Assembly: GCF_949628215.1 (NCBI RefSeq)
Contig: NW_027441285.1
Span: 171,001 to 235,000, forward strand
Direction of reading: 5' to 3'
Source: Phalacrocorax aristotelis
Lineage: Eukaryota; Chordata; Aves; Suliformes; Phalacrocoracidae
DNA length: 64,000 bases
Shown here: one piece after another, positions 17,603 to 64,000 of the stretch
Layout: every line of letters starts with the position of its first letter
How positions within the stretch are numbered: position 1 is the first letter of the stretch
Program-made: the position numbers and the translations under genes
Notes under the pieces: generated by a model
What the model was told of the DNA's origin: nothing
Database searches by the model: none
Seen by the model: the letters and a program-made list of their open reading frames with translations, nothing else

Positions 17603-17620
17603 GCCCCACGTTGGGCGCCA
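17603..17620 (-). other. Primer binding site for tRNA-Lys1,2
   Basis: On the minus strand the 18 bases TGGCGCCCAACGTGGGGC follow the 5' LTR after a 7-nt spacer. They are complementary to the 3' end of tRNA-Lys1,2, the primer site also used by foamy viruses and several betaretroviruses. Confidence 0.88.
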
Positions 17621-17627
17621 AAAAGAC

Positions 17628-24330: not shown

Positions 24331-24339
24331 ACCTATAGT

Positions 24340-25040: not shown

Positions 25041-25049
25041 TCCCCTTTC

Positions 25050-32046: not shown

Positions 32047-32650
32047 CAGGCTGTAGTTGGGCTCTCGAGGGTGTTCCTACATGGGAACAAGAGCTGTGTC
32101 ATGGTGAAGGTGTTGCTGTGCATCCAGGTGACTTGTTGGGTATTGTTTTTGCAGATGCCGAGGGATGGAGGAGAGCAGGGGGTGGGGAGCGCTGCAAGCA
32201 GGTGAGTTGGTGTGTGGTGGTTATAGAGGGAAGATGTGACTGGCTCTACGACACTGTGTGTTTGAGTTACGGGTTTTTTTTTGTTTATTTGTTTTTTGGC
32301 TTTGAAGGTGCATAGCAATGAGCCAAGTGGGATCTGGGCACTGGAGGCAAGTTGGGCAATGTATTGTACTGTGATATATTGGGGCCACAAGTGATGACAG
32401 GTGCAGTGTGTGATGCTGGAATCTGTGCAGAGCAGGTAAGCAGGTGGATGTGTTCCTTTTGAGGAGGGGGATGTTCTGCAAGAGTCTGTGTTGGCCCATG
32501 TGATACTGTTGGCACTGTTTTGTGGGTGTGGTGGTTTCTCTGTTTTTGGTGGGTGTTTTGGGTGTTTGGTGTTTTTGTGTTGTTTTTTTTTAGATCATGG
32601 AGAGGCACCTGGCAACTGCTAGAATATGCTGGTTAGCTGATGTGGTTTTT
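32047..32650 (+). repeat. Partial 2.1-kb unit A4, segments c-e deleted
   Basis: Segments a and b are present (b acceptor TTTTTGCAG, donor GTGAGT). An f-like segment follows at about 32,381-32,435 (donor GTAAGC), then g from 32594 (acceptor TTTTTTTAG). Segments c, d and e are absent. Similarity fades after about 32,650, which ends the unit A series. Confidence 0.6.
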
Positions 32651-43727: not shown

Positions 43728-44318
43728 GTTTTAGAACTCGATAAGGGTTGGTGGTATTTAAATTTGAAAGCTCATTTGTGTCTAAACTTATAACTCTTTC
43801 CTTATCTAATACTGTATTGGAGGTTCAGGTGTGGTAAAAAGGCTTGATAGTATGTTGTTCTGTTATTTTTTTCTTTTTAGTTTTGAGTGTGTTTCTTTTT
43901 ATTATTGGAATTCTCACCTTTATTGAATCTTAAAGTTATTTTCATAAACTCTCTTGTGTAATCTGGAAGGTGTTGACATTAAGTGTTAAGGGTATTGATA
44001 AGATGTGGTAGGGGTTAGGGTGAGTGTTCTGTATGCATTTATGTATGGGAATTTATATATGCTGTTTCTTTAGAAAAAGAGCGATACAAGTGTATAGTTA
44101 ATATCCATAGACTTCTGTAAAACCCTGTGTAGCCTTGTGCAGAGCCAATAGCCAAAAGCAATGGGAGCGGTCAGTAACTTTACTAGTATTTTGTAGATGT
44201 TAAGGGGATGACTGTAGCTGGCAGCTAGAGTGCTAGCTGAGAGTACATCCTAACGGTCGTCAGGTTTGTACGTGTATAGGGTGTAATGCTTGAGTTAACG
44301 TATGTCTTTTAATGGCAG
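43728..44318 (+). other. Intron-like spacer of unit B
   Basis: Matches 25,256-25,877; AT-rich; ends with the acceptor TCTTTTAATGGCAG at 44318. Confidence 0.5.
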
Positions 44319-45600
44319 GTGGTAGTTGGGCTCTACGTGGTATTCCTACATGGGAGCAAGACCTATGGATCCATTAAGCTATTGCTGTGCATCCAGGTGA
44401 CTTCCACCATGTCCTTTTTTCCAGAGGCAGAGGAGGAGTTGTTCAGGGTGACAGAGGAAAGCCGGGGAAATGCTGTAAGAAGGTAGGCCGGTGTGTGGTA
44501 CATAGAAGGAAGATGTGACTGATGGCTGAATGACTCTGCAGTGTGTTTTGGGGGGTTAGAAGGCAGTAAGGAATGAGCCAAGTGTGAGCTGGACACAGGA
44601 GGGAAGTTGAGCAAGGTGAACGGTGATTGGTGTGCTGAAGTAGCAGTTTTTTCTGAGGTGTTGTGTTGATAGTGAAGGTAGAAGTGACCTGTGTTACTTG
44701 TGTGTTACAGGTGAGCCTCAAAGTTGCAGCTGGAACTGACAGAGGCTGGGCAGGCAAGCTGTCAAAGAAAAGATGTATAAGAACGGGGTTCAGCGTGGGT
44801 AGGTTGCTGTTCTGGGTAATATCGTAGCATGTATCTTCTTCCTTAAGTTTTTGCACATGCTCCATGTAGGCTTTGTGGGAGAGACACAGTGTGGTGATGA
44901 GACCTCAGAGAAGGCTATGGTGAGCGTGATTGACTCACTCAATTGTAGCGTTTTTCTTTGTTTTTGTAGGTTGTGTGCCAGCTGCCTTTGGGATTGGATG
45001 CGAGTTTGAGGTGAGCTGGGTTGCAGACGGGAGGGGTGTGGGGCTGGTGTGGTTCGCTCTTCCTTTTTTGGAAGAGCGATGGTCACTTTGTGTATCCTGT
45101 GGTATCTCTAGGGGCCGCAAGGGATGGCATTTGTCCTCGTCCGGAATGGGCACGGAGCAGCCGGGTGCGTGTGAGGTGGGGGACGTTGTGGGGTAGGTCC
45201 TTGTTGAGTGATGGGATGCTGACAGCACTGCTGTGTGTTTTTGTTCTTTTTGTTTAGATGATGAAAAGGCACCTGGCACTTGGAGGACCGATGCAGTGGG
45301 CTGACTGTGTGCTTGTTCTTCAGAAGGATGGGTGGACTGAGACTCTTGGCCCCTTGAAAGCTAAGTTGAGGCAACGGTGCTGGGGAAGGTTTGGGGGAGG
45401 GAGGGGTTTTAAAGATGGTGCAGCGGAGCGGGCTGACCGGGAAGCAGTCCCCTTTGAGAGGAGGGAAAAGGAGCGGGTTCCTCTTCAATGTGACGGGAAC
45501 ATGTGCCGGGCAGGGCGGTTCCAAGCTGTGTGTGTTATTGTGCAGTGTGTGTTTTGTGTTGGGTGTCTCCGACCTTCCTTGGGTCTCGGTTGTTCTCTTT
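44319..45600 (+). repeat. Diverged 2.1-kb unit B0
   Basis: Segments: a 44319-44396 (ends CCAG|GTGAC); b 44431-44482 (donor GTAGGC); c 44711-44749 (TGTTACAG; GC where donor GT is expected); d 44870-44919 (TGTAG; donor GTGAGC displaced six bases compared with other copies); e 44970-45010 (TTTTTGTAG / GTGAGC); f 45112-45160 (CTAG; donor GT replaced by CC); g from 45258 (TGTTTAG). It is closer to unit A1 than to the adjoining array. High identity to the array unit begins only at about 45,576. Confidence 0.7.
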
Positions 45601-45636
45601 GTTGCGTAGGATCGAGGCAGGTGCCTCGGCAGCGTT

Positions 45637-45660
45637 ACTAGGGCCCGGTGAGGCCCTAGT
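45637..45660. other. Perfect hairpin 1 of the array unit
   Basis: ACTAGGGCC, loop CGGTGA, GGCCCTAGT: 9-bp perfect stem. It repeats every 2,151 bp (eight times to 60,694). Unit A1 keeps a 7-bp core of it (TAGGGCC/GGCCCTA near 27,290). Confidence 0.75.
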
Positions 45661-45947
45661 CGCGGGCACGGCACCCATCGGGCGCTTCTCTTTTGGCGTC
45701 GCCAGCTTCCGGCGTGGATCGTTTTGGCGTCTCGGGTGGTCCTGGCCGGTGGTGGCGTGCCGCGCCGTTCCCGGCTGCGTGAGCGGCTCTGCTCGCTAGC
45801 TGTCGCTTTTAGGGATTGGCGCTTCTTCCTTGCATCTTCAGGGGCTGAGGTCTTGAAGGCGGGCTGCTTGCGCATCGGTCTTGTCAGTTTTGAGAGGAAG
45901 CGCTTGTCCCCGCCCGCAAAGGTCTCGTCGTTTTCTGGCGTGGCGCT

Positions 45948-45978
45948 AGGAGCACGCGAGGGTTCTGCGCGTGCTCCT
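45948..45978. other. Perfect hairpin 2 of the array unit
   Basis: AGGAGCACGCG, 9-nt loop, CGCGTGCTCCT: 11-bp perfect stem rich in CpG. It repeats every 2,151 bp (eight times to 61,005). I do not find it in the diverged units. Confidence 0.75.
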
Positions 45979-46414
45979 CTTACCGGATGGAGGTTTTCTG
46001 TACGTGCGTCGTCTCTCTCGCCGAGCGACGTGGCTTGTCTTTTTGAGGCGTGTCGTTGTTGGCGTTCTGTGTAGGGTTTGTCTGTGGTTGTGGCGTCTTG
46101 GCTTGGAGCCGCCCTGCCCGGGGCTGTAGCGTCAGGGCGAGGTGGCACAGGAGCGATGAGAGGCTATGGCTTATGTCTCAAAGTGCCTTGCTTCTGTGGG
46201 GGAAAAGATGTGTGGCCCTCTTAGCTCGAGCGGCCATTGTCAGTGGGTGAGAAAAAGAATTCCCATGGTGTCTTGTGGCCTCCCAGGGGATGACGGTAGC
46301 TGTCTGGGAGAGGGAGCTCCTGCTTCAGCGGAGCAGAGAGCATCTCAAGGGCGTTCTGGCTTGGATGTGGGTCGGGCGTAATGCTTGGTTTACGGTGTTT
46401 AGATGGCAGAGCAG

Positions 46415-46515
46415 GCCTAGCTGGGCTCTCGATGGGCTTGCTACCTGGCAACAAGGCCTGTGGAACGGCTAAGCTGTTGCTGTTCGTTGAGGGGACTTGT
46501 TCGATCTTTTTGCAG
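46415..46515 (+). other. Segment a region in array copy 1
   Basis: Corresponds to segment a of the diverged units after the AGCAG acceptor, but the donor position reads GGGACT instead of GTGACT in every array copy. The gap between a and b is only about 30-35 bases in all units, too short for an intron, so a and b are probably one exon with an internal TTTTTGCAG. Confidence 0.4.
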
Positions 46516-46575
46516 ATGCCGAGGGAGGAGTCGTGCAGGGCGACGGAGGAGGGCCGAGGATAGCGCTGCAAGCAG
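46516..46575 (+). other. Exon-like segment b in array copy 1
   Basis: 60 bp between TCTTTTTGCAG and GTGAGT. Repeats at +2,151 in each full copy. The ATG frame stops after 15 codons. Confidence 0.55.
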
Positions 46576-46795
46576 GTGAGTTGGTGCGTGGTGTATGTAG
46601 AGGGAAGTGGTGACCGATGGCTCTGCGAGTGCAATATGGCATTAATATTTGAGGGTGCATGTGGTGGGCCAAGCGGGATCCGGGCACCGGAGGGGAACTG
46701 CACGGGGTGAGCAATGTTAGGTGAGCTGAAGTAGGGCCGTGTCTCTTTGGGCGTTGCCGTTAGAGTCGTGAACGACCCATCTTTGTGTCTTGCAG

Positions 46796-46841
46796 GTGGT
46801 GGTTGAGCTTGAACGTGGCAGTTGGATCTGAGGGCGTCCAG
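46796..46841 (+). other. Exon-like segment c in array copy 1
   Basis: 46 bp between TTTGTGTCTTGCAG and GTGGGT. In diverged units the same segment is 39-50 bp and its donor varies between GTGGGC and a GC form. Confidence 0.55.
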
Positions 46842-46950
46842 GTGGGTGAGCTGGTGAGGGAAAGGTGCGAGTCTTAGACGGGGATTGGTGTGGGTAGCCT
46901 GCCACTTCTGCAGCCTCTGAGCAGGCGCCTTTCTGCTTGGATTTTTGCAG

Positions 46951-47007
46951 GTGCCGCAATCAGCCTTTAGAGGGGAGACGACGCACGGCGACGAGAGGTC
47001 CGAGAAG
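46951..47007 (+). other. Exon-like segment d in array copy 1
   Basis: 57 bp between GGATTTTTGCAG and GTGAGG. Its 3' part (GGGGAGA...GACGAGAGGTCCGAGAAG) is the most conserved exon-like stretch among all units. Confidence 0.6.
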
Positions 47008-47092
47008 GTGAGGCGATTGCGCTCAAGGCGGTGGTTCCGTACCAAGGTGTTGTGTGGCAAGCGGGTTGGAGCGTTTCTGTTTGGTTTTTCAG

Positions 47093-47132
47093 ATGGTGTG
47101 CAGCTGCCTTTGGGACCGGATGCGCGTTTGAG
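47093..47132 (+). other. Exon-like segment e in array copy 1
   Basis: 40 bp between TTTGGTTTTTCAG and GTGAGC. Array copies are one base shorter than units A1 and B0, which would shift any reading frame. Confidence 0.6.
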
Positions 47133-47221
47133 GTGAGCTGGGTCGCAGACGGGCGGGGTGTGGGGCTGGGGAGATCTTCCTTTGGAAGTGCAGCGGTAAC
47201 ATGGTCTCCTGGTATCCCTAG

Positions 47222-47270
47222 GGGCCACAAGGGAGGACAACAGTGTGAGTTGGGCACGGCCACAGAGCAA
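47222..47270 (+). other. Exon-like segment f in array copy 1
   Basis: 49 bp between TATCCCTAG and GTGAGC. Diverged copies range from 39 to about 55 bp. Confidence 0.55.
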
Positions 47271-47392
47271 GTGAGCAGAGCAGCTGGGCACATCTGAGGT
47301 AGACGGCTGCAGCGGCCCAGGTCTTTGTAGAGTGACGGGATGCTGACTGACAGGGCTGTTGTGCGGGGCTTGTGATTGTTTTTATTTTTCAG

Positions 47393-47490
47393 ATGACGAA
47401 GAGGCAGCTGGTGCCTGGAGGAGTGACGTGTGCTCGTCCATCAGAAGGAAGGGACGCGGGAGGCTCCCGGCCCCTTGAAAGCTAAGTTGA
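47393..47490 (+). other. Exon-like segment g in array copy 1 (3' end unclear)
   Basis: Starts after TTTTTATTTTTCAG. It is well conserved up to CCCCTTGAAAGCTAAG in all units, but no GT donor occupies a constant place, so the 3' end is uncertain. It may be a terminal or alternatively ended exon. Confidence 0.45.
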
Positions 47491-47751
47491 GGCAACGGTG
47501 CTGGGGAAGGGGTTGGGGGAGCGAGGGGGGCACGGTTGGCTGTGGCAGGAAGGGGTTTTAAAGGGAGCGTAGGGGAGAGGGTTGTCTAGGAAGCAGTCCC
47601 CTTTGAGCAGGGGAACGGAGCGGGTTCCTCTGGAATATGACAGTAGTGTGCCCTGGGCAGGGCGGTTCCAGGCTGTGCGTGTCGTTGTGTAGTGCGTCTG
47701 TGTGTTTGGTGTTGGGTGTGTTTGACCGTTCTTGGGTCTCGGTTGTTCTTT

Positions 47752-49902
47752 GTTGCGTAGGATCGAGGCAGGTGCCTCGGCAGCGTTACTAGGGCCCGGT
47801 GAGGCCCTAGTCGCGGGCACGGCGCCCATCGGGCGCTTCTCTTTTGGCGTCGCCAGCTTCCGGCGTGGATCGTTTTGGCGTCTCGGGTGGTCCTGGCCGG
47901 TGGTGGCGTGCCGCGCCGTTCCCGGCCGCGTGAGCGGCTCTGCTCGCTAGCTGTCGCTTTTAGGGATTGGCGCTTCTTCCTTGCATCTTCAGGGGCTGAG
48001 GTCTTGAAGGCGGGCTGCTTGCGCATCGGTCTTGTCAGTTTTGAGAGGAAGCGCTTGTCCCCGCCCGCAAAGGTCTCGTCGTTTTCTGGCGTGGCGCTAG
48101 GAGCACGCGAGGGTTCTGCGCGTGCTCCTCTTACCGGATGGAGGTTTTCTGTACGTGCGTCGTCTCTCTCGCCGAGCGACGTGGCTTGTCTTTTTGAGGC
48201 GTGTCGTTGTTGGCGTTCTGTGTAGGGCTTGTCTGTGGTTGTGGCGTCTTGGCTTGGAGCCGCCCTGCCCGGGGCTGTAGCGTCAGGGCGAGGTGGCACA
48301 GGAGCGATGAGAGGCTATGGCTTATGTCTCAAAGTGCCTTGCTTCTGTGGGGGAAAAGATGTGTGGCCCTCTTAGCTCGAGCGGCCGTTGTCAGTGGGTG
48401 AGAAAAAGAATTCCCATGGTGTCTTGTGGCCTCCCAGGGGATGACGGTAGCTGTCTGGGAGAGGGAGCTCCTGCTTCAGCGGAGCAGAGAGCATCTCAAG
48501 GGCGTTCTGGCTTGGATGTGGGTCGGGCGTAATGCTTGGTTTACGGTGTTTAGATGGCAGAGCAGGCCTAGCTGGGCTCTCGATGGGCTTGCTACCTGGC
48601 AACAAGGCCTGTGGAACGGCTAAGCTGTTGCTGTTCGTTGAGGGGACTTGTTCGATCTTTTTGCAGATGCCGAGGGAGGAGTCGTGCAGGGCGACGGAGG
48701 AGGGCCGAGGATAGCGCTGCAAGCAGGTGAGTTGGTGCGTGGTGTATGTAGAGGGAAGTGGTGACCGATGGCTCTGCGAGTGCAATATGGCATTAATATT
48801 TGAGGGTGCATGTGGTGGGCCAAGCGGGATCCGGGCACCGGAGGGGAACTGCACGGGGTGAGCAATGTTAGGTGAGCTGAAGTAGGGCCGTGTCTCTTTG
48901 GGCGTTGCCGTCAGAGTCGTGAACGACCCATCTTTGTGTCTTGCAGGCGGTGGTCGAGCTTGAACGTGGCAGTTGGATCTGAGGGCGTCCAGGTGGGTGA
49001 GCTGGTGAGGGAAAGGTGCGAGTCTTAGACGGGGATTGGTGTGGGTAGCCTGCCACTTCTGCAGCCTCTGAGCAGGCGCCTTTCTGCTTGGATTTTTGCA
49101 GGTGCCGCAATCAGCCTTTAGAGGGGAGACGACGCACGGCGACGAGAGGTCCGAGAAGGTGAGGCGATTGCGCTCAAGGCGGTGGTTCCGTACCAAGGTG
49201 TTGTGTGGCAAGCGGGTTGGAGCGTTTCTGTTTGGTTTTTCAGATGGTGTGCAGCTGCCTTTGGGACCGGATGCGCGTTTGAGGTGAGCTGGGTCGCAGA
49301 CGGGCGGGGTGTGGGGCTGGGGAGATCTTCCTTTGGAAGTGCAGCGGTAACATGGTCTCCTGGTATCCCTAGGGGCCACAAGGGAGGACAACAGTGTGAG
49401 TTGGGCACGGCCACAGAGCAAGTGAGCAGAGCAGCTGGGCGCATCTGAGGTAGACGGCTGCAGCGGCCCAGGTCTTTGTAGAGTGACGGGATGCTGACTG
49501 ACAGGGCTGTTGTGCGGGGCTTGTGATTGTTTTTATTTTTCAGATGACGAAGAGGCAGCTGGTGCCTGGAGGAGTGACGTGTGCTCGTCCATCAGAAGGA
49601 AGGGACGCGGGAGACTCCCGGCCCCTTGAAAGCTAAGTTGAGGCAACGGTGCTGGGGAAGGGGTTGGGGGAGCGAGGGGGGCACGGTTGGCTGTGGCAGG
49701 AAGGGGTTTTAAAGGGAGCGTAGGGGAGAGGGTTGTCTAGGAAGCAGTCCCCTTTGAGCAGGGGAACGGAGCGGGTTCCTCTGGAATATGACAGTAGCGT
49801 GCCCTGGGCAGGGCGGTTCCAGGCTGTGCGTGTCGTTGTGTAGTGCGTCTGTGTGTTTGGTGTTGGGTGTGTTTGACCGTTCTTGGGTCTCGGTTGTTCT
49901 TT
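47752..49902 (+). repeat. Array copy 2
   Basis: C variant at the GGG(T/C)TTGTCTG site, GTCTC variant, CCGCG variant, GACTCCC near 49,615, and GTCAGAGTCG near 48,910. Confidence 0.9.
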
Positions 49903-52053
49903 GTTGCGTAGGATCGAGGCAGGTGCCTCGGCAGCGTTACTAGGGCCCGGTGAGGCCCTAGTCGCGGGCACGGCGCCCATCGGGCGCTTCTCTTTTGGCG
50001 TCGCCAGCTTCCGGCGTGGATCGTTTTGGCGTCTCGGGTGGTCCTGGCCGGTGGTGGCGTGCCGCGCCGTTCCCGGCCGCGTGAGCGGCTCTGCTCGCTA
50101 GCTGTCGCTTTTAGGGATTGGCGCTTCTTCCTTGCATCTTCAGGGGCTGAGGTCTTGAAGGCGGGCTGCTTGCGCATCGGTCTTGTCAGTTTTGAGAGGA
50201 AGCGCTTGTCCCCGCCCGCAAAGGTCTCGTCGTTTTCTGGCGTGGCGCTAGGAGCACGCGAGGGTTCTGCGCGTGCTCCTCTTACCGGATGGAGGTTTTC
50301 TGTACGTGCGTCGTCTCTCTCGCCGAGCGACGTGGCTTGTCTTTTTGAGGCGTGTCGTTGTTGGCGTTCTGTGTAGGGTTTGTCTGTGGTTGTGGCGTCT
50401 TGGCTTGGAGCCGCCCTGCCCGGGGCTGTAGCGTCAGGGCGAGGTGGCACAGGAGCGATGAGAGGCTATGGCTTATGCCTCAAAGTGCCTTGCTTCTGTG
50501 GGGGAAAAGATGTGTGGCCCTCTTAGCTCGAGCGGCCGTTGTCAGTGGGTGAGAAAAAGAATTCCCATGGTGTCTTGTGGCCTCCCAGGGGATGACGGTA
50601 GCTGTCTGGGAGAGGGAGCTCCTGCTTCAGCGGAGCAGAGAGCATCTCAAGGGCGTTCTGGCTTGGATGTGGGTCGGGCGTAATGCTTGGTTTACGGTGT
50701 TTAGATGGCAGAGCAGGCCTAGCTGGGCTCTCGATGGGCTTGCTACCTGGCAACAAGGCCTGTGGAACGGCTAAGCTGTTGCTGTTCGTTGAGGGGACTT
50801 GTTCGATCTTTTTGCAGATGCCGAGGGAGGAGTCGTGCAGGGCGACGGAGGAGGGCCGAGGATAGCGCTGCAAGCAGGTGAGTTGGTGCGTGGTGTATGT
50901 AGAGGGAAGTGGTGACCGATGGCTCTGCGAGTGCAATATGGCATTAATATTTGAGGGTGCATGTGGTGGGCCAAGCGGGATCCGGGCACCGGAGGGGAAC
51001 TGCACGGGGTGAGCAATGTTAGGTGAGCTGAAGTAGGGCCGTGTCTCTTTGGGCGTTGCCGTTAGAGTCGTGAACGACCCATCTTTGTGTCTTGCAGGCG
51101 GTGGTCGAGCTTGAACGTGGCAGTTGGATCTGAGGGCGTCCAGGTGGGTGAGCTGGTGAGGGAAAGGTGCGAGTCTTAGACGGGGATTGGTGTGGGTAGC
51201 CTGCCACTTCTGCAGCCTCTGAGCAGGCGCCTTTCTGCTTGGATTTTTGCAGGTGCCGCAATCAGCCTTTAGAGGGGAGACGACGCACGGCGACGAGAGG
51301 TCCGAGAAGGTGAGGCGATTGCGCTCAAGGCGGTGGTTCCGTACCAAGGTGTTGTGTGGCAAGCGGGTTGGAGCGTTTCTGTTTGGTTTTTCAGATGGTG
51401 TGCAGCTGCCTTTGGGACCGGATGCGCGTTTGAGGTGAGCTGGGTCGCAGACGGGCGGGGTGTGGGGCTGGGGAGATCTTCCTTTGGAAGTGCAGCGGTA
51501 ACATGGTCTCCTGGTATCCCTAGGGGCCACAAGGGAGGACAACAGTGTGAGTTGGGCACGGCCACAGAGCAAGTGAGCAGAGCAGCTGGGCGCATCTGAG
51601 GTAGACGGCTGCAGCGGCCCAGGTCTTTGTAGAGTGACGGGATGCTGACTGACAGGGCTGTTGTGCGGGGCTTGTGATTGTTTTTATTTTTCAGATGACG
51701 AAGAGGCAGCTGGTGCCTGGAGGAGTGACGTGTGCTCGTCCATCAGAAGGAAGGGACGCGGGAGGCTCCCGGCCCCTTGAAAGCTAAGTTGAGGCAACGG
51801 TGCTGGGGAAGGGGTTGGGGGAGCGAGGGGGGCACGGTTGGCTGTGGCAGGAAGGGGTTTTAAAGGGAGCGTAGGGGAGAGGGTTGTCTAGGAAGCAGTC
51901 CCCTTTGAGCAGGGGAACAGAGCGGGTTCCTCTGGAATATGACAGTAGCGTGCCCTGGGCAGGGCGGTTCCAGGCTGTGCGTGTCGTTGTGTAGTGCGTC
52001 TGTGTGTTTGGTGTTGGGTGTGTTTGACCGTTCTTGGGTCTCGGTTGTTCTTT
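49903..52053 (+). repeat. Array copy 3
   Basis: T variant at the GGG(T/C)TTGTCTG site, GCCTC variant near 50,478, CCGCG, GGCTCCC near 51,767. Confidence 0.9.
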
Positions 52054-54204
52054 GTTGCGTAGGATCGAGGCAGGTGCCTCGGCAGCGTTACTAGGGCCCG
52101 GTGAGGCCCTAGTCGCGGGCACGGCGCCCATCGGGCGCTTCTCTTTTGGCGTCGCCAGCTTCCGGCGTGGATCGTTTTGGCGTCTCGGGTGGTCCTGGCC
52201 GGTGGTGGCGTGCCGCGCCGTTCCCGGCCGCGTGAGCGGCTCTGCTCGCTAGCTGTCGCTTTTAGGGATTGGCGCTTCTTCCTTGCATCTTCAGGGGCTG
52301 AGGTCTTGAAGGCGGGCTGCTTGCGCATCGGTCTTGTCAGTTTTGAGAGGAAGCGCTTGTCCCCGCCCGCAAAGGTCTCGTCGTTTTCTGGCGTGGCGCT
52401 AGGAGCACGCGAGGGTTCTGCGCGTGCTCCTCTTACCGGATGGAGGTTTTCTGTACGTGCGTCGTCTCTCTCGCCGAGCGACGTGGCTTGTCTTTTTGAG
52501 GCGTGTCGTTGTTGGCGTTCTGTGTAGGGCTTGTCTGTGGTTGTGGCGTCTTGGCTTGGAGCCGCCCTGCCCGGGGCTGTAGCGTCAGGGCGAGGTGGCA
52601 CAGGAGCGATGAGAGGCTATGGCTTATGCCTCAAAGTGCCTTGCTTCTGTGGGGGAAAAGATGTGTGGCCCTCTTAGCTCGAGCGGCCGTTGTCAGTGGG
52701 TGAGAAAAAGAATTCCCATGGTGTCTTGTGGCCTCCCAGGGGATGACGGTAGCTGTCTGGGAGAGGGAGCTCCTGCTTCAGCGGAGCAGAGAGCATCTCA
52801 AGGGCGTTCTGGCTTGGATGTGGGTCGGGCGTAATGCTTGGTTTACGGTGTTTAGATGGCAGAGCAGGCCTAGCTGGGCTCTCGATGGGCTTGCTACCTG
52901 GCAACAAGGCCTGTGGAACGGCTAAGCTGTTGCTGTTCGTTGAGGGGACTTGTTCGATCTTTTTGCAGATGCCGAGGGAGGAGTCGTGCAGGGCGACGGA
53001 GGAGGGCCGAGGATAGCGCTGCAAGCAGGTGAGTTGGTGCGTGGTGTATGTAGAGGGAAGTGGTGACCGATGGCTCTGCGAGTGCAGTATGGCATTAATA
53101 TTTGAGGGTGCATGTGGTGGGCCAAGCGGGATCCGGGCACCGGAGGGGAACTGCACGGGGTGAGCAATGTTAGGTGAGCTGAAGTAGGGCCGTGTCTCTT
53201 TGGGCGTTGCCGTTAGAGTCGTGAACGACCCATCTTTGTGTCTTGCAGGCGGTGGTCGAGCTTGAACGTGGCAGTTGGATCTGAGGGCGTCCAGGTGGGT
53301 GAGCTGGTGAGGGAAAGGTGCGAGTCTTAGACGGGGATTGGTGTGGGTAGCCTGCCACGTCTGCAGCCTCTGAGCAGGCGCCTTTCTGCTTGGATTTTTG
53401 CAGGTGCCGCAATCAGCCTTTAGAGGAGAGACGACGCACGGCGACGAGAGGTCCGAGAAGGTGAGGCGATTGCGCTCAAGGCGGTGGTTCCGTACCAAGG
53501 TGTTGTGTGGCAAGCGGGTTGGAGCGTTTCTGTTTGGTTTTTCAGATGGTGTGCAGCTGCCTTTGGGACCGGATGCGCGTTTGAGGTGAGCTGGGTCGCA
53601 GACGGGCGGGGTGTGGGGCTGGGGAGATCTTCCTTTGGAAGTGCAGCGGTAACATGGTCTCCTGGTATCCCTAGGGGCCACAAGGGAGGACAACAGTGTG
53701 AGTTGGGCACGGCCACAGAGCAAGTGAGCAGAGCAGCTGGGCGCATCTGAGGTAGACGGCTGCAGCGGCCCAGGTCTTTGTAGAGTGACGGGATGCTGAC
53801 TGACAGGGCTGTTGTGCGGGGCTTGTGATTGTTTTTATTTGTCAGATGACGAAGAGGCAGCTGGTGCCTGGAGGAGTGACGTGTGCTCGTCCATCAGAAG
53901 GAAGGGACGCGGGAGACTCCCGGCCCCTTGAAAGCTAAGTTGAGGCAACGGTGCTGGGGAAGGGGTTGGGGGAGCGAGGGGGGCACGGTTGGCTGTGGCA
54001 GGAAGGGGTTTTAAAGGGAGCGTAGGGGAGAGGGTTGTCTAGGAAGCAGTCCCCTTTGAGCAGGGGAACGGAGCGGGTTCCTCTGGAATATGACAGTAGC
54101 GTGCCCTGGGCAGGGCGGTTCCAGGCTGTGCGTGTCGTTGTGTAGTGCGTCTGTGTGTTTGGTGTTGGGTGTGTTTGACCGTTCTTGGGTCTCGGTTGTT
54201 CTTT
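52054..54204 (+). repeat. Array copy 4
   Basis: C variant at the GGG(T/C)TTGTCTG site, GCCTC, CCACGTCTGC near 53,356 (others have CCACTTCTGC), GACTCCC near 53,918, and TTTGTCAG instead of TTTTTCAG at the segment g acceptor near 53,838. Confidence 0.9.
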
Positions 54205-56355
54205 GTTGCGTAGGATCGAGGCAGGTGCCTCGGCAGCGTTACTAGGGCCCGGTGAGGCCCTAGTCGCGGGCACGGCGCCCATCGGGCGCTTCTCTTTTGG
54301 CGTCGCCAGCTTCCGGCGTGGATCGTTTTGGCGTCTCGGGTGGTCCTGGCCGGTGGTGGCGTGCCGCGCCGTTCCCGGCCGCGTGAGCGGCTCTGCTCGC
54401 TAGCTGTCGCTTTTAGGGATTGGCGCTTCTTCCTTGCATCTTCAGGGGCTGAGGTCTTGAAGGCGGGCTGCTTGCGCATCCGTCTTGTCAGTTTTGAGAG
54501 GAAGCGCTTGTCCCCGCCCGCAAAGGTCTCGTCGTTTTCTGGCGTGGCGCTAGGAGCACGCGAGGGTTCTGCGCGTGCTCCTCTTACCGGATGGAGGTTT
54601 TCTGTACGTGCGTCGTCTCTCTCGCCGAGCGACGTGGCTTGTCTTTTTGAGGCGTGTCGTTGTTGGCGTTCTGTGTAGGGCTTGTCTGTGGTTGTGGCGT
54701 CTTGGCTTGGAGCCGCCCTGCCCGGGGCTGTAGCGTCAGGGCGAGGTGGCACAGGAGCGATGAGAGGCTATGGCTTATGCCTCAAAGTGCCTTGCTTCTG
54801 TGGGGGAAAAGATGTGTGGCCCTCTTAGCTCGAGCGGCCGTTGTCAGTGGGTGAGAAAAAGAATTCCCATGGTGTCTTGTGGCCTCCCAGGGGATGACGG
54901 TAGCTGTCTGGGAGAGGGAGCTCCTGCTTCAGCGGAGCAGAGAGCATCTCAAGGGCGTTCTGGCTTGGATGTGGGTCGGGCGTAATGCTTGGTTTACGGT
55001 GTTTAGATGGCAGAGCAGGCCTAGCTGGGCTCTCGATGGGCTTGCTACCTGGCAACAAGGCCTGTGGAACGGCTAAGCTGTTGCTGTTCGTTGAGGGGAC
55101 TTGTTCGATCTTTTTGCAGATGCCGAGGGAGGAGTCGTGCAGGGCGACGGAGGAGGGCCGAGGATAGCGCTGCAAGCAGGTGAGTTGGTGCGTGGTGTAT
55201 GTAGAGGGAAGTGGTGACCGATGGCTCTGCGAGTGCAATATGGCATTAATATTTGAGGGTGCATGTGGTGGGCCAAGCGGGATCCGGGCACCGGAGGGGA
55301 ACTGCACGGGGTGAGCAATGTTAGGTGAGCTGAAGTAGGGCCGTGTCTCTTTGGGCGTTGCCGTTAGAGTCGTGAACGACCCATCTTTGTGTCTTGCAGG
55401 CGGTGGTCGAGCTTGAACGTGGCAGTTGGATCTGAGGGCGTCCAGGTGGGTGAGCTGGTGAGGGAAAGGTGCGAGTCTTAGACGGGGATTGGTGTGGGTA
55501 GCCTGCCACGTCTGCAGCCTCTGAGCAGGCGCCTTTCTGCTTGGATTTTTGCAGGTGCCGCAATCAGCCTTTAGAGGGGAGACGACGCACGGCGACGAGA
55601 GGTCCGAGAAGGTGAGGCGATTGCGCTCAAGGCGGTGGTTCCGTACCAAGGTGTTGTGTGGCAAGCGGGTTGGAGCGTTTCTGTTTGGTTTTTCAGATGG
55701 TGTGCAGCTGCCTTTGGGACCGGATGCGCGTTTGAGGTGAGCTGGGTCGCAGACGGGCGGGGTGTGGGGCTGGGGAGATCTTCCTTTGGAAGTGCAGCGG
55801 TAACATGGTCTCCTGGTATCCCTAGGGGCCACAAGGGAGGACAACAGTGTGAGTTGGGCACGGCCACAGAGCAAGTGAGCAGAGCAGCTGGGCGCATCTG
55901 AGGTAGACGGCTGCAGCGGCCCAGGTCTTTGTAGAGTGACGGGATGCTGACTGACAGGGCTGTTGTGCGGGGCTTGTGATTGTTTTTATTTTTCAGATGA
56001 CGAAGAGGCAGCTGGTGCCTGGAGGAGTGACGTGTGCTCGTCCATCAGAAGGAAGGGACGCGGGAGGCTCCCGGCCCCTTGAAAGCTAAGTTGAGGCAAC
56101 GGTGCTGGGGAAGGGGTTGGGGGAGCGAGGGGGGCACGGTTGGCTGTGGCAGGAAGGGGTTTTAAAGGGAGCATAGGGGAGAGGGTTGTCTAGGAAGCAG
56201 TCCCCTTTGAGCAGGGGAACGGAGCGGGTTCCTCTGGAATATGACAGTAGCGTGCCCTGGGCAGGGCGGTTCCAGGCTGTGCGTGTCGTTGTGTAGTGCG
56301 TCTGTGTGTTTGGTGTTGGGTGTGTTTGACCGTTCTTGGGTCTCGGTTGTTCTTT
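54205..56355 (+). repeat. Array copy 5
   Basis: C variant at the GGG(T/C)TTGTCTG site, GCCTC, GCATCCGTC near 54,477, CCACGTCTGC shared with copy 4, GGCTCCC near 56,070, and AGCATAGGGG near 56,170. Confidence 0.9.
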
Positions 56356-58506
56356 GTTGCGTAGGATCGAGGCAGGTGCCTCGGCAGCGTTACTAGGGCC
56401 CGGTGAGGCCCTAGTCGCGGGCACGGCGCCCATCGGGCGCTTCTCTTTTGGCGTCGCCAGCTTCCGGCGTGGATCGTTTTGGCGTCTCGGGTGGTCCTGG
56501 CCGGTGGTGGCGTGCCGCGCCGTTCCCGGCTGCGTGAGCGGCTCTGCTCGCTAGCTGTCGCTTTTAGGGATTGGCGCTTCTTCCTTGCATCTTCAGGGGC
56601 TGAGGTCTTGAAGGCGGGCTGCTTGCGCATCGGTCTTGTCAGTTTTGAGAGGAAGCGCTTGTCCCCGCCCGCAAAGGTCTCGTCGTTTTCTGGCGTGGCG
56701 CTAGGAGCACGCGAGGGTTCTGCGCGTGCTCCTCTTACCGGATGGAGGTTTTCTGTACGTGCGTCGTCTCTCTCGCCGAGCGACGTGGCTTGTCTTTTTG
56801 AGGCGTGTCGTTGTTGGCGTTCTGTGTAGGGTTTGTCTGTGGTTGTGGCGTCTTGGCTTGGAGCCGCCCTGCCCGGGGCTGTAGCGTCAGGGCGAGGTGG
56901 CACAGGAGCGATGAGAGGCTATGGCTTATGCCTCAAAGTGCCTTGCTTCTGTGGGGGAAAAGATGTGTGGCCCTCTTAGCTCGAGCGGCCGTTGTCAGTG
57001 GGTGAGAAAAAGAATTCCCATGGTGTCTTGTGGCCTCCCAGGGGATGACGGTAGCTGTCTGGGAGAGGGAGCTCCTGCTTCAGCGGAGCAGAGAGCATCT
57101 CAAGGGCGTTCTGGCTTGGATGTGGGTCGGGCGTAATGCTTGGTTTACGGTGTTTAGATGGCAGAGCAGGCCTAGCTGGGCTCTCGATGGGCTTGCTACC
57201 TGGCAACAAGGCCTGTGGAACGGCTAAGCTGTTGCTGTTCGTTGAGGGGACTTGTTCGATCTTTTTGCAGATGCCGAGGGAGGAGTCGTGCAGGGCGACG
57301 GAGGAGGGCCGAGGATAGCGCTGCAAGCAGGTGAGTTGGTGCGTGGTGTATGTAGAGGGAAGTGGTGACCGATGGCTCTGCGAGTGCAATATGGCATTAA
57401 TATTTGAGGGTGCATGTGGTGGGCCAAGCGGGATCCGGGCACCGGAGGGGAACTGCACGGGGTGAGCAATGTTAGGTGAGCTGAAGTAGGGCCGTGTCTC
57501 TTTGGGCGTTGCCGTTAGAGTCGTGAACGACCCATCTTTGTGTCTTGCAGGCGGTGGTCGAGCTTGAACGTGGCAGTTGGATCTGAGGGCGTCCAGGTGG
57601 GTGAGCTGGTGAGGGAAAGGTGCGAGTCTTAGACGGGGATTGGTGTGGGTAGCCTGCCACTTCTGCAGCCTCTGAGCAGGCGCCTTTCTGCTTGGATTTT
57701 TGCAGGTGCCGCAATCAGCCTTTAGAGGGGAGACGACGCACGGCGACGAGAGGTCCGAGAAGGTGAGGCGATTGCGCTCAAGGCGGTGGTTCCGTACCAA
57801 GGTGTTGTGTGGCAAGCGGGTTGGAGCGTTTCTGTTTGGTTTTTCAGATGGTGTGCAGCTGCCTTTGGGACCGGATGCGCGTTTGAGGTGAGCTGGGTCG
57901 CAGACGGGCGGGGTGTGGGGCTGGGGAGATCTTCCTTTGGAAGTGCAGCGGTAACATGGTCTCCTGGTATCCCTAGGGGCCACAAGGGAGGACAACAGTG
58001 TGAGTTGGGCACGGCCACAGAGCAAGTGAGCAGAGCAGCTGGGCGCATCTGAGGTAGACGGCTGCAGCGGCCCAGGTCTTTGTAGAGTGACGGGATGCTG
58101 ACTGACAGGGCTGTTGTGCGGGGCTTGTGATTGTTTTTATTTTTCAGATGACGAAGAGGCAGCTGGTGCCTGGAGGAGTGACGTGTGCTCGTCCATCAGA
58201 AGGAAGGGACGCGGGAGACTCCCGGCCCCTTGAAAGCTAAGTTGAGGCAACGGTGCTGGGGAAGGGGTTGGGGGAGCGAGGGGGGCACGGTTGGCTGTGG
58301 CAGGAAGGGGTTTTAAAGGGAGCGTAGGGGAGAGGGTTGTCTAGGAAGCAGTCCCCTTTGAGCAGGGGAACGGAGCGGGTTCCTCTGGAATATGACAGTA
58401 GCGTGCCCTGGGCAGGGCGGTTCCAGGCTGTGCGTGTCGTTGTGTAGTGCGTCTGTGTGTTTGGTGTTGGGTGTGTTTGACCGTTCTTGGGTCTCGGTTG
58501 TTCTTT
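56356..58506 (+). repeat. Array copy 6
   Basis: T variant at the GGG(T/C)TTGTCTG site and the CTGCG variant near 56,530, both shared with copy 1; GCCTC; GACTCCC near 58,220. Confidence 0.9.
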
Positions 58507-60657
58507 GTTGCGTAGGATCGAGGCAGGTGCCTCGGCAGCGTTACTAGGGCCCGGTGAGGCCCTAGTCGCGGGCACGGCGCCCATCGGGCGCTTCTCTTTT
58601 GGCGTCGCCAGCTTCCGGCGTGGATCGTTTTGGCGTCTCGGGTGGTCCTGGCCGGTGGTGGCGTGCCGCGCCGTTCCCGGCCGCGTGAGCGGCTCTGCTC
58701 GCTAGCTGTCGCTTTTAGGGATTGGCGCTTCTTCCTTGCATCTTCAGGGGCTGAGGTCTTGAAGGCGGGCTGCTTGCGCATCCGTCTTGTCAGTTTTGAG
58801 AGGAAGCGCTTGTCCCCGCCCGCAAAGGTCTCGTCGTTTTCTGGCGTGGCGCTAGGAGCACGCGAGGGTTCTGCGCGTGCTCCTCTTACCGGATGGAGGT
58901 TTTCTGTACGTGCGTCGTCTCTCTCGCCGAGCGACGTGGCTTGTCTTTTTGAGGCGTGTCGTTGTTGGCGTTCTGTGTAGGGCTTGTCTGTGGTTGTGGC
59001 GTCTTGGCTTGGAGCCGCCCTGCCCGGGGCTGTAGCGTCAGGGCGAGGTGGCACAGGAGCGATGAGAGGCTATGGCTTATGTCTCAAAGTGCCTTGCTTC
59101 TGTGGGGGAAAAGATGTGTGGCCCTCTTAGCTCGAGCGGCCGTTGTCAGTGGGTGAGAAAAAGAATTCCCATGGTGTCTTGTGGCCTCCCAGGGGATGAC
59201 GGTAGCTGTCTGGGAGAGGGAGCTCCTGCTTCAGCGGAGCAGAGAGCATCTCAAGGGCGTTCTGGCTTGGATGTGGGTCGGGCGTAATGCTTGGTTTACG
59301 GTGTTTAGATGGCAGAGCAGGCCTAGCTGGGCTCTCGATGGGCTTGCTACCTGGCAACAAGGCCTGTGGAACGGCTAAGCTGTTGCTGTTCGTTGAGGGG
59401 ACTTGTTCGATCTTTTTGCAGATGCCGAGGGAGGAGTCGTGCAGGGCGACGGAGGAGGGCCGAGGATAGCGCTGCAAGCAGGTGAGTTGGTGCGTGGTGT
59501 ATGTAGAGGGAAGTGGTGACCGATGGCTCTGCGAGTGCAATATGGCATTAATATTTGAGGGTGCATGTGGTGGGCCAAGCGGGATCCGGGCACCGGAGGG
59601 GAACTGCACGGGGTGAGCAATGTTAGGTGAGCTGAAGTAGGGCCGTGTCTCTTTGGGCGTTGCCGTCAGAGTCGTGAACGACCCATCTTTGTGTCTTGCA
59701 GGCGGTGGTCGAGCTTGAACGTGGCAGTTGGATCTGAGGGCGTCCAGGTGGGTGAGCTGGTGAGGGAAAGGTGCGAGTCTTAGACGGGGATTGGTGTGGG
59801 TAGCCTGCCACTTCTGCAGCCTCTGAGCAGGCGCCTTTCTGCTTGGATTTTTGCAGGTGCCGCAATCAGCCTTTAGAGGGGAGACGACGCACGGCGACGA
59901 GAGGTCCGAGAAGGTGAGGCGATTGCGCTCAAGGCGGTGGTTCCGTACCAAGGTGTTGTGTGGCAAGCGGGTTGGAGCGTTTCTGTTTGGTTTTTCAGAT
60001 GGTGTGCAGCTGCCTTTGGGACCGGATGCGCGTTTGAGGTGAGCTGGGTCGCAGACGGGCGGGGTGTGGGGCTGGGGAGATCTTCCTTTGGAAGTGCAGC
60101 GGTAACATGGTCTCCTGGTATCCCTAGGGGCCACAAGGGAGGACAACAGTGTGAGTTGGGCACGGCCACAGAGCAAGTGAGCAGAGCAGCTGGGCGCATC
60201 TGAGGTAGACGGCTGCAGCGGCCCAGGTCTTTGTAGAGTGACGGGATGCTGACTGACAGGGCTGTTGTGCGGGGCTTGTGATTGTTTTTATTTTTCAGAT
60301 GACGAAGAGGCAGCTGGTGCCTGGAGGAGTGACGTGTGCTCGTCCATCAGAAGGAAGGGACGCGGGAGACTCCCGGCCCCTTGAAAGCTAAGTTGAGGCA
60401 ACGGTGCTGGGGAAGGGGTTGGGGGAGCGAGGGGGGCACGGTTGGCTGTGGCAGGAAGGGGTTTTAAAGGGAGCGTAGGGGAGAGGGTTGTCTAGGAAGC
60501 AGTCCCCTTTGAGCAGGGGAACGGAGCGGGTTCCTCTGGAATATGACAGTAGCGTGCCCTGGGCAGGGCGGTTCCAGGCTGTGCGTGTCGTTGTGTAGTG
60601 CGTCTGTGTGTTTGGTGTTGGGTGTGTTTGACCGTTCTTGGGTCTCGGTTGTTCTTT
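58507..60657 (+). repeat. Array copy 7
   Basis: C variant at the GGG(T/C)TTGTCTG site, GTCTC near 59,081, GCATCCGTC near 58,779, GTCAGAGTCG near 59,665 (shared with copy 2), GACTCCC near 60,370. Confidence 0.9.
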
Positions 60658-61211
60658 GTTGCGTAGGATCGAGGCAGGTGCCTCGGCAGCGTTACTAGGG
60701 CCCGGTGAGGCCCTAGTCGCGGGCACGGCGCCCATCGGGCGCTTCTCTTTTGGCGTCGCCAGCTTCCGGCGTGGATCGTTTTGGCGTCTCGGGTGGTCCT
60801 GGCCGGTGGTGGCGTGCCGCGCCGTTCCCGGCCGCGTGAGCGGCTCTGCTCGCTAGCTGTCGCTTTTAGGGATTGGCGCTTCTTCCTTGCATCTTCAGGG
60901 GCTGAGGTCTTGAAGGCGGGCTGCTTGCGCATCCGTCTTGTCAGTTTTGAGAGGAAGCGCTTGTCCCCGCCCGCAAAGGTCTCGTCGTTTTCTGGCGTGG
61001 CGCTAGGAGCACGCGAGGGTTCTGCGCGTGCTCCTCTTACCGGATGGAGGTTTTCTGTACGTGCGTCGTCTCTCTCGCCGAGCGACGTGGCTTGTCTTTT
61101 TGAGGCGTGTCGTTGTTGGCGTTCTGTGTAGGGCTTGTCTGTGGTTGTGGCGTCTTGGCTTGGAGCCGCCCTGCCCGGGGCTGTAGAGTCAGGGCGAGGT
61201 GGCACAGGAGC
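60658..61211 (+). repeat. Array copy 8, truncated
   Basis: Only the CpG-rich quarter is present. It carries the GCATCCGTC variant like copies 5 and 7, and one private change (TGTAGAGTC for TGTAGCGTC). It joins directly to a diverged segment e end (ATTTGAG|GTGAAC). Confidence 0.9.
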
Positions 61212-61480
61212 ATTTGAGGTGAACTGGGTTGCAGAGAAGAGGGGTGTGGACCTGGTGATTTTTTTAGGAATGGCAATGGCAACTCTATGTGCTTTTATCT
61301 CTAGTGGCCGCAAAGGATGGTGACTGTCGAAGTGCAGCATGGGTAAGGAACAGGTAAGAGGAGAAGCTAGGTGCATGTGAGGTGGGGGATGTTGCGGGGT
61401 AGGTCCTTGTGCAGCGATGTGATGGTGACAATGCTATTGAGTGTGGATTGTTGTGGGGTTTTTTTTAGGTGAAGGAATAT
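61212..61480 (+). repeat. Diverged unit remnant after the array (segments e-g)
   Basis: Begins inside segment e (ATTTGAG|GTGAAC). Segment f follows at 61315-61353 (ATCTCTAG / GTAAGA), then a TTTTTTTTAG acceptor at 61468. It resembles units A1 and A2 more than the array copies, so the array expanded inside an older series of units. Confidence 0.6.
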
Positions 61481-63746
61481 ATGTTCCTCCCTTTGGTAAC
61501 CATCATCTTTGGGTGACTGCACGCTACTAAATTTCCTCTGACACTTGTACGGTTTAATGCACGTACTGTTGTATTAGTGTATGTATATGCCTGCACAGAT
61601 TCCTTCAGCTCTTTTTTTGTTGGAACATATCTATGTAGTTTCTATTGTGCAGTTCTTTATTGTTGTGTATCTGTATAGCTATCCTGTGTGGCTGAGTGTG
61701 TGTACCTAGGCACTTACCTCCGCTGCCTTGTACTGTTGCACATATGTAGTGCTTGTTGTACCCTGTTTGCCTGTTGTAGTTGAGTGAATGTCCATAGTTA
61801 ATCTACCACTGCAGCGTGGCGGAAGTATCTGCCCGTGTACATCATTGCTGCGTGTGATCGATTAGAGCTGGTGTTGTATCGTTGGATGTACATTCACACA
61901 TCCTTGCGTAGTGAGGTTGAGTGAATGCAGAAGTCAGTATTGGCTGCCTGTGTTCTATGGGTGAATGTAGTTTGAAATGAACCAAGGACACGGGTAGTTA
62001 CATATATTTTGTTGAAACTGTCTTTGATAAGGTTGTGCAGTTTGGGGTGTTCATGGTGTTTTGAGGGGTGGGTTTGGTGGTGGTAGCTAACAGCAAACTT
62101 CTTCCACAGGATTAAAACAAAAAATTAGAATAAAAAAACCCCAGCTGGGGGATTCTTTTTTCTCCCCCGGCTGGGTTTTTTTTTTTTCCCTGGTCCTGGC
62201 TGCTCTGTGAGGCGACGTTCATCGCCAATGTTTGGGCAGAGGTCAGGCTCTGGGACGGGGTTTTGGCAGGCAGGGCAATTTTTTGAGGCGCCTGGGAGCG
62301 GAGTTCCCAGGGAGCGCCGGAGGAGCAGGGCGACAGGTGGTGGGACCGGCTTGGTGGAGAGGAAGGAGTGATAGACACGGTGGGCAGATGAGCGGTCTGT
62401 TGGAAACCTTTGTGAGGTTGCCGGGTTGAATGTGTGTGTCAGTAGAGGTCTGATGTTCGGTGGTGTGGGGTGTTGTTGGAGATGTTCCTGTGGGGCTGAG
62501 ATGCAGTCTTTGAAGAGGCATAGAGATGGGGGAATTTCTGAATCTGGGTTTTGTCTTCCATGGCTGGTGCTGGTTTCCTGAAGTGTTTATAGGCATTCTA
62601 CAGCCAGTGTGTCAGGCAATGTGTAATACGCATGTTTGGGTGGCTGTCCCTCTAGGCATAGGGTTTTGTGTGCTGTCTGGGTATATGGCATTGAAGGGTT
62701 GATTTTTGGATGTATGATATGATAGGTCTAGCTCGGTGTTGATGAAATTGCATACAGTGGGTTTTGGGTATGGGGAGTTGGAGTAGGTGGCCATTGTTTA
62801 GGTGGGGCAGCTTGAGAATGATGTGGGTTTACGGTCATTGTGTATGCCTAGGGTGTAGCGAAGTACCTTCGGTGTGGTTAGCGTATGTTATAAGGATGCT
62901 GGTTTGTCTGTCATAGGGGTGTTGAAGTCTAAGGTCTGCAGAGATGAGAGAAGGCATGTTGTCAGCTGATCGGTAGTATGCGTCACAGAGGCAGTGTGGA
63001 TTGGAAGAGGAAAAGGTATATTAGCAAAGCAGTAAGTGGACTACATAAGGAGAGAGAGCTTTGTGCCTAAGGTAACAGGGTCTGAGGCTCAGGTGGTAAG
63101 CGCTTGCTAGGAGCCTAAAGGAGTTACAGTTGTAGTATAATTAGAGGACTAATGAGTAAGAGGTGACCCAATTAGTCGGGATGGGAAGTATTGGACCTAG
63201 GGAGGTAATGTTATCCTTGCAGAAGTGAATTATGGCAATGAGAGGAGACAGGTACTGCTCAGTAGATGAATGAACGGTAGAAATGGATTTATCCAGGGGG
63301 AAAAAGGAGTTTAAGTGTAGGACATGTTGTCTAATACAGTGATTGTATTAGTAACAGCAAATAACTGCATGGGCCTAAGTGCTACCCCTTGGCCTCAGAG
63401 CAAGGACAAGATTGAAGTGTGGATGTAGAGACGTGTACAAGCATGTAGAGGTGTTGCTGTGGAGCTAGGTAAGGAATAAGGGTAATGATGAAGTCGGTAT
63501 TGGAGGGAGAGGAGTGAGGCAGGCTGAGTAAATGTAGTTGTGTGAGGAGGAAAAGAAATGTTGCAGTAGTAGGTATTGTAAGTTGTGGAAACACATATGT
63601 TGTTTACATGCAGCGAGGGCAGTTAGGTGTGGGGAGGCAGGGCACTTTGTTACCATATCGTTAGCATGGGAAAACTTCAATGTGGTGTGGTAACAGAAAT
63701 GAAGGCCGTTAGGAGTTGTGCACATCATGCCTCTGTTACATTGCAG
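61481..63746 (+). other. Intron-like unique stretch
   Basis: No gene or known element. A G-rich part lies at 62,220-62,430 next to a long imperfect hairpin (62,132-62,182). Open frames up to 117 codons are unsupported. It ends in the acceptor CTCTGTTACATTGCAG. Confidence 0.4.
62132..62182. other. Long imperfect inverted repeat
   Basis: AAAAAAACCCCAGCTGGGGGA on the left pairs with TCCCCCGGCTGGGTTTTTTT on the right across a loop of about 10 bases. The paired arms are about 20 bp with one mismatch and one bulge, and a T run follows. It may fold in RNA; function unknown. Confidence 0.6.
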
Positions 63747-63860
63747 GTGGAGAGGTCCCAGAGGAATGCGACAGGTGGAAAAGCACGCTTTATGTCTGGT
63801 GTTTCCCAAAACTGGAGGTATAATAAAGGAGCATAACTAATACAATAAAAAAGTAAATGA
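63747..63860 (+). other. Candidate terminal exon with polyadenylation signals
   Basis: A strong acceptor (CCTCTGTTACATTGCAG ending at 63746) opens a segment with AATAAA at 63822-63827 and again at 63844-63849. A T/GT-rich stretch follows (TGTGTCTCATTGTTTTATT). It is on the same strand as promoter P5 and the array and could be the last exon of unit B. A short frame of 29 codons ends just before the second signal. Confidence 0.45.
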
Positions 63861-64000
63861 AAACATGTGTCTCATTGTTTTATTCAGGCCTCCTGTGTGT
63901 TATTTGTGGGTGGGGTGGAATTTCCAGTGGGTGGCATTCAATCACAGGGCTCGATGTAGCCCTTAAACTCTATGGGAGGTAATTAAAGGAAAAAAAGCGG
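63861..64000. other. Right edge, unassigned
   Basis: About 140 bases with no recognisable feature beyond the possible cleavage region of the candidate terminal exon. Confidence 0.3.

Follow-up and report, generated by a model that had tools for sequence, protein, structure and literature searches.

A homogenised 2,151-bp array in Phalacrocorax aristotelis as a candidate module of a subtelomeric, telomere-directed non-coding transcription unit

The window analysed here, 64,000 nucleotides of the Phalacrocorax aristotelis assembly GCF_949628215.1 (contig NW_027441285.1, positions 171,001 to 235,000), is the final 64 kb of a contig that we call C230, and carries on its plus strand a homogenised array of a 2,151-bp unit at 45610–61211. 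We read this array as a module, multiplied in tandem, of a spliced non-coding transcription unit that is subtelomeric, points toward the telomere and has CpG-island promoters, and on the sequence evidence assign this reading a probability of about 0.63. The array would represent the local amplification of one module from a segmental duplication common to several chromosome ends, with unequal crossing-over or gene conversion having multiplied and homogenised the telomere-proximal copy. The module itself would belong to a non-coding unit that runs on the plus strand in the direction of the telomere. CpG-island promoter-like DNA would lie at the junction of successive units (from unit position 1851 to about 400), short exons would be spliced downstream of it within each unit, and one shared last exon would follow the array, with polyadenylation about 1 kb ahead of the telomeric repeats. 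Growth of the array would add promoter and exon modules jointly. A read-through transcript could then contain repeats of the exons, or every unit could initiate a transcript of its own.

Results

A homogenised array with diverged edges

A 20-base anchor occurs eight times, at 45610, 47761, 49912, 52063, 54214, 56365, 58516 and 60667, with each of the seven steps measuring exactly 2,151 bp. Compared in pairs, the seven full units (U1–U7) differ by 1–14 bases (0.05–0.65%), with 18 variable columns and no insertions or deletions, while the eighth (U8) ends at 61211, at about unit position 545, giving 7.25 copies in the assembly. An earlier note, written from the sequence of this region, had described just such a series of near-identical copies and had held that the unit is no simple satellite; the anchors and pairwise differences uphold the first statement, and the second is supported as well. 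Tandem Repeats Finder missed the array because its longest period was 500.

The feature extends beyond that first description. A diverged copy at 44190–45609 (unit about 676–2151) abuts U1 on the left, and a remnant of about 250 bases at 61212–61468 (unit about 1515–1790), which carries an acceptor at its end (61467–61468), opens a stretch of remnant and terminal segment reaching to 63865. An older duplicate of the same block, made of diverged, CpG-depleted units, occupies 22446–32362; its three measured copies are 67.8–69.7% identical to the young unit and have a CpG observed/expected ratio (o/e) of 0.24–0.33. All of these lie on the plus strand. Arrays typically show such a homogenised centre with decaying edges. 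Both array loci are preceded by pyrimidine-rich flanks of negative GC skew (20–24 kb and 40–43 kb), with the sign flipping at about 25 and 43 kb, and related purine-rich DNA is present, inverted, at 5.6–6.6 kb of the window.

Near-identical tandem copies are difficult to assemble, and C230 is exactly 235,000 bases long and ends about 1 kb before the expected telomere. The seven copies could in principle have been made or miscounted by the assembler. However, the 18 variable columns are distributed differently among the units, some bases being common to non-neighbours, and the diverged copies on either side of the array keep the register expected of them, which makes an assembly artefact highly improbable.

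A multi-contig, mostly subtelomeric family

The unit was searched against its own genome (1.28 Gb, 352 contigs; match counts are lower bounds), and at least 28 matches were found on six contigs besides C230, designated C1, C2, C13, C109, C211 and C256. On C1, C109 and C211, CCCTAA repeats stand near the contig start and the family lies on the minus strand; its sense strand therefore points toward the telomere. On C13 the family is on the plus strand with about 2.2 kb of contig remaining, and its sense strand points to the contig end. Homology reaches the last bases of the window at 89–90% on C109 and C211, after which about 1.1 and 0.8 kb, respectively, separate it from the telomeric tract. 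The right end of the window is placed by homology about 1 kb from a telomere, and the window probably adjoins a chromosome tip. A homologous block in like orientation at several ends, as expected of a subtelomeric segmental duplication, was thus found on C1, C109, C211 and C13, with C2 and C256 as exceptions.

The copies follow a recurrent layout. C1, C109 and C13 each carry one young copy and then, away from the telomere, two older ones; in the stretches examined, C211, C256 and C2 carry, besides fragments, a single young copy and a single older one. A partial copy adjoins the young copy on all six other contigs, and the following remnant was matched on five of them (not C256). Among the loci seen, the young copy is amplified in the window alone, and in trees the four array units included (U1, U2, U5 and U7) form one clade inside the young class. 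Taken together, family structure and trees show the array to be the telomere-proximal module, locally amplified, of a mostly subtelomeric segmental duplication. Local homogenisation is visible on C109, where the copies C109_m and C109_o are identical across their 5′ half. The neighbouring copies at C109:17350-21639 and at C13:19046650-19050968 match completely or almost completely in the 5′ half but not in the 3′ half, which points to partial gene conversion inside a single end.

Splice-like signals of the unit

Splice-like sites were scored with generic vertebrate matrices that are not bird-trained, and the tests were post hoc and made on related copies. With this scoring, the plus strand of the young unit holds 8 strong acceptor-like sites compared with 1.5 expected, a number reached in none of 1000 dinucleotide shuffles, and 10 donors compared with 4.9 expected (reached in 21 of 1000). 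An acceptor followed 20–200 bases on by a donor occurs five times, against an expectation of 0.6 (3 of 1000 shuffles). On the minus strand there are one donor and two acceptors. An order-2 Markov control of the young unit agrees with the shuffles, and the excess over both controls therefore identifies segments b–g, described below, as a real, non-random feature. Across 19 copies, sense-strand acceptors were above the Markov expectation in 18 and donors in all 19, with p ≤ 0.05 in 8 copies for acceptors and in 5 for donors; antisense donors number 0–1 in each copy.

The earlier note had marked out six segments, b–g, each with a pyrimidine-AG in front and, for b–f, GTGAG or GTGGG behind, and these are present letter for letter. 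On the plus strand of U2 they would correspond to predicted exons b (48667–48726, 60 nt; acceptor TTTTTGCAG, donor CAG/GTGAGT, cut after CAG), c (48947–48992, 46 nt), d (49102–49158, 57 nt) and e (49244–49283, 40 nt), the last being the best-kept exon-like segment of the diverged copies (80.7%). Predicted exon f (49373–49421) would be 23 nt long with the donor proposed at first (to 49395) or 49 nt with a donor at unit position 1662, and predicted segment g (49544–49630) has an undefined 3′ border. Transcripts carrying dozens of tiny repeated exons are the prediction that would follow from this arrangement.

Part of this grammar is shared by other members of the family. Six young copies on other contigs retain every acceptor AG of b–g (36/36) and every donor GT of b–e (24/24), and the acceptor AGs are retained at 17 of 18 positions in three middle copies and 35 of 45 in eight old ones. 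The donors kept in diverged copies are those of b (10/11), d (9/10) and e (8/10). In 6 of the 17 copies simulated, acceptors were stronger than neutral change would predict (p < 0.05); the copies are related, and gapped sites were excluded. Identity in diverged copies is 77, 73, 81 and 73% for exons b, d, e and g, and introns b–c, c–d and d–e, at 65, 67 and 59%, are less conserved than exons b, d and e. Two further sites were noticed post hoc. The donor at unit 1662 reads GT in 11 of the 15 other copies that have letters at that position, and 16 of 17 other copies keep a donor-like site at unit 1098, which belongs to no segment of b–g. The splice grammar is thus partly retained in diverged copies, mostly in its acceptors and in the donors of b, d and e; the first-proposed donor of f is not retained. 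Of the proposal that the unit is built from exon-intron modules, the non-random, mostly plus-strand grammar stands, whereas the exon list needs amending at the donors of f and c.

The terminal segment and the CpG/GC-skew domain

Immediately after the right-edge remnant, a possible terminal exon at 61469–63865 extends on the plus strand for about 2.4 kb to a pair of AATAAA signals and is 89.6–91.6% identical on four other contigs. Its acceptor at the end of the remnant scores 8–9 and is kept in all five aligned sequences (the window and four contigs). The AATAAA pair, at 63822 and 63844 (63822–63849, plus strand), is present in all three sequences that extend that far, namely the window, C109 and C211. 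On C109, 500-base steps from 22250 to 12250 show a CpG o/e of 0.67–1.45 and a GC skew of +0.10 to +0.40, and both drop in the step starting at 12000, beside the AATAAA pair at 12027 and 12002. C211 has a matching 3′ border of the CpG/skew domain at its AATAAA pair (5773, 5748). These features, consistent with a shared last exon and its polyadenylation signals, and the multi-contig, mostly subtelomeric, telomere-directed family to which they belong had escaped the earlier note, which had caught the exon-like module grammar.

From the AATAAA pair to the telomeric tract (about C109:11250-12000 and C211:5000-5750) the composition is mirrored, the sense strand being C- and A-rich, and the same stretches hold more AATAAA and, nearer the telomere, a AACCGGAAGTAACC-type element, as if a short unit ran the opposite way, away from the telomere.

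CpG content differs by contig. It is 0.81–0.95 (o/e) on C109, C13 and C211, 0.24–0.57 on C1 and in the four diverged copies of the window, 0.67 on C2 and 0.73 on C256; five older copies on C109, C13 and C211 that are 73–78% identical reach 0.90–0.95. This contrast suggests end-specific germline methylation: judging by the high and low values among old copies, the block has probably gone without germline methylation for a long time at some ends but not at others.

The CpG-rich half and the promoter-like block

The array consists of CpG-rich tandem units with a CpG o/e of about 0.8. The CpG-rich half (unit 1–560; 47761–48320 in U2, plus strand) contains a short hairpin with a GGGCC/GGCCC core (unit 30–50), which, judged by eye, is kept in all 15 copies with letters among 19 aligned; it is weakened in one further old copy, O_D. 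Folding of the first 480 bases is just modestly better than that of shuffles (z = −1.99; matched by 1 of 100). A second hairpin, at unit 339–367, is not conserved in diverged copies, whose sequence there differs. Conserved hairpins were considered as the function of the array and rejected. At unit 339–367 (e.g., 48099–48127), the middle and old copies carry a different stretch that is by eye also inverted-repeat-like.

The best-conserved block of the unit spans positions 1851–2000 (49611–49760 in U2, plus strand, with TTTTAAAG at 49707–49714). It is 87.1% conserved across 11 diverged copies and sits between segment g and the CpG-rich half, and we infer that it is promoter-like. Conservation among the diverged copies reaches 94.5% at unit 485–514 (e.g., 48245–48274), where U2 has TTGGC-N5-GCC, a nuclear factor 1-type palindrome that is complete in 5 of 18 copies.

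Coding capacity and other identities

No coding capacity was found in the open frames, the longest being 29 amino acids in spliced b–g and 58 in the plus-strand terminal segment. An antisense frame of 386 amino acids had no protein match at E ≤ 0.001 among 2905 candidates. With short frames only and no homologous protein, a protein-coding gene cluster was rejected. Rfam gave no match in the window at the gathering score and, in 45500–50000 (about two units) at E ≤ 5, only two matches, both at E = 3.6 to a WT1-AS long non-coding RNA region and far below the cut-off; no intronic snoRNA or miRNA was detected per unit with Rfam families. A plasmid origin was rejected on zero matches in a plasmid collection.

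Two other elements of the window were noted. A retroelement with an open pol-like frame lies at 12398–18126 on the minus strand and is ENS-3-like by one match name. Bird proteins match its reverse transcriptase with identities of up to 95% (stork), and the 115 named among the best 120 of 428 matches are all from birds; among the named matches listed, stork, ibis, crane and parrot stand at 93–95% and duck at 87%. A copy 99.1% identical to this retroelement is found inside the C2 unit (C2:1570050-1576556) with a 6-bp flank overlap at unit 1212–1217, as expected for a target-site duplication. A 61-bp tandem repeat at 807–2128 (21.7 copies) is CpG-rich and contains CCGGAAGT, presumably an ETS-type motif, 41 times on its plus strand. 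Homology to the human 61-bp TERRA repeat was rejected: the comparison covered unit length only, which the two share, and the repeat of the window sits about 62 kb away from the end of its contig.

Discussion

Several observations weigh against a telomere-directed, spliced transcription unit, beyond the generic matrices and related copies on which the splice scores depend. At the level of splice signals, antisense acceptors are not rare (2–5 per copy). The retention of acceptor AGs does not differ significantly from that of other AGs of the unit (permutation p = 0.08–0.17), nor does that of donor GTs from other GTs (p = 0.46–0.87 for a–f and 0.09–0.50 for b–e), and donor strength exceeded the neutral simulation in just 1 of 17 copies (gapped sites dropped). 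The donor of c reads GC in 9 of 11 diverged copies. The first-proposed donor of f (unit 1636) is GT in young copies only and CC in all 10 diverged copies with letters (11 examined). Exons c (67%) and f (66%) are conserved no better than introns b–c and c–d, while introns e–f (74%) and f–g (76.5%) are conserved like exons. As to position, C1 has a run of N between the telomeric tract and the family. The C2 locus, which adjoins a run of N, is 1.57 Mb into its 168-Mb contig, and on C256 the sense strand points away from the nearer contig end; telomeric repeats are absent from the 20 kb examined there, which reach neither contig end. Both misfitting loci may be rearranged or misplaced. At the 3′ side, further AATAAA occur upstream of the pair (window 62129, inside the terminal segment; C109 13741/13730; C211 7481/7470) and also downstream of it on C109 and C211, so the pair is distinguished by the border at two ends and not by uniqueness. 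The terminal segment of the window has a CpG o/e of 0.22–0.53 with GC skew still positive and is not CpG-depleted on C109 and C211; in the window the CpG domain therefore ends with the array and not at the AATAAA.

Some of these points would be explained if the family were a decayed subtelomeric duplication, that is, a former spliced gene, non-coding or coding, now spread and homogenised by recombination only, with the array as a by-product and no important transcript. The lack of significance in the AG and GT retention tests, the loss of splice sites and CpGs in diverged copies on C1 and at the older locus of the window, the terminal segment of the window without its CpGs, and homogenisation within one end, as between C109_m and C109_o, are all compatible with decay. 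However, the high CpG o/e of the five old copies on C109, C13 and C211 argues for lasting non-methylation in the germline, and retention extends to the acceptors, including the terminal one, and to the AATAAA border on C109 and C211. We therefore regard decay as unlikely, and favor a module with predicted promoter activity, transcription, splicing and polyadenylation.

The position of the family calls to mind the human 61-29-37 TERRA promoters, described in passages of two papers as CpG-rich repeats at many chromosome ends that drive telomere-directed transcription and are associated with R-loops (PMC12242772, PMC6600276). By analogy, transcription beginning in the CpG-island units could continue across the terminal segment and into the TTAGGG tract, making the locus a source of bird telomeric repeat RNA. 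Like those promoters, as far as the cited passages describe them, the array is built from CpG-rich tandem units directed at the telomere, a few to 20 kb away, and it also has strong positive GC skew. The family adjoins TTAGGG repeats and points at them on C109 and C211, on C1 across a run of N, and in the window by homology only. In contrast to the 61-, 29- and 37-bp human units, whose start sites are described near the repeats, the array unit is 2,151 bp long with exon-like segments; AATAAA signals precede the telomere, and the CpG/skew domain on C109 and C211 ends about 1 kb short of it. Strict NRF1 and CTCF-core patterns had no exact match in the 18 copies scanned for them. A promoter array of this type is improbable as the whole explanation, and a TERRA-like role is possible.

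Three other systems invite comparison with the array. PO41, a subtelomeric tandem repeat of chicken and quail, yields non-coding RNA according to a passage in PMC4301066; it has a 41-bp unit transcribed from both strands, unlike the 2,151-bp unit with its one-stranded signals and splice grammar. SNORD116-type host arrays consist of repeated ~2-kb exon-intron modules giving long non-coding transcripts. The present array shares with them repeated, predicted exon-intron modules and differs in having no Rfam match at the gathering score. Chicken MHM (AB046698), a BamHI-unit repeat, was suggested by the 2.2-kb unit and the single BamHI site (GGATCC occurs once per unit), and it resembles the array in unit length (about 2.2 kb), CpG richness and presumed non-coding nature. 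It was rejected since four published primers, the MHM sequences compared, fail to match the window (best 17/24, 14/19, 16/21 and 15/21), and since the host, going by the named reverse transcriptase matches, is probably neoavian. MHM is moreover Z-linked, with hypermethylation in males and transcription in females, whereas the array family is on at least seven contigs, that of the window included. A W- or Z-linked array was also considered; members of the family are spread over several contigs. Passages in one paper describe MHM as seemingly absent beyond Galloanserae, one of them noting a single region that has been suggested for other clades (PMC10575545), and another passage states that it is not universal among birds (PMC10510239). 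Among the matches listed in the open-licence literature, which included PO41 and the human TERRA promoters, no comparable bird family was found; this is no proof of absence.

More broadly, bird chromosome ends might harbour a spliced non-coding RNA gene, conserved and directed at the telomere, that is composed of CpG-island promoter and exon modules and is arrayed at one end as a natural copy-number series that would regulate telomere-adjacent chromatin or feed telomeric repeat RNA; we consider this a speculative extension that is unlikely to hold in full. If the family is transcribed, it would constitute a defined subtelomeric promoter system in birds, and, because ends differ in module number and CpG state, an effect of dosage would be directly testable.

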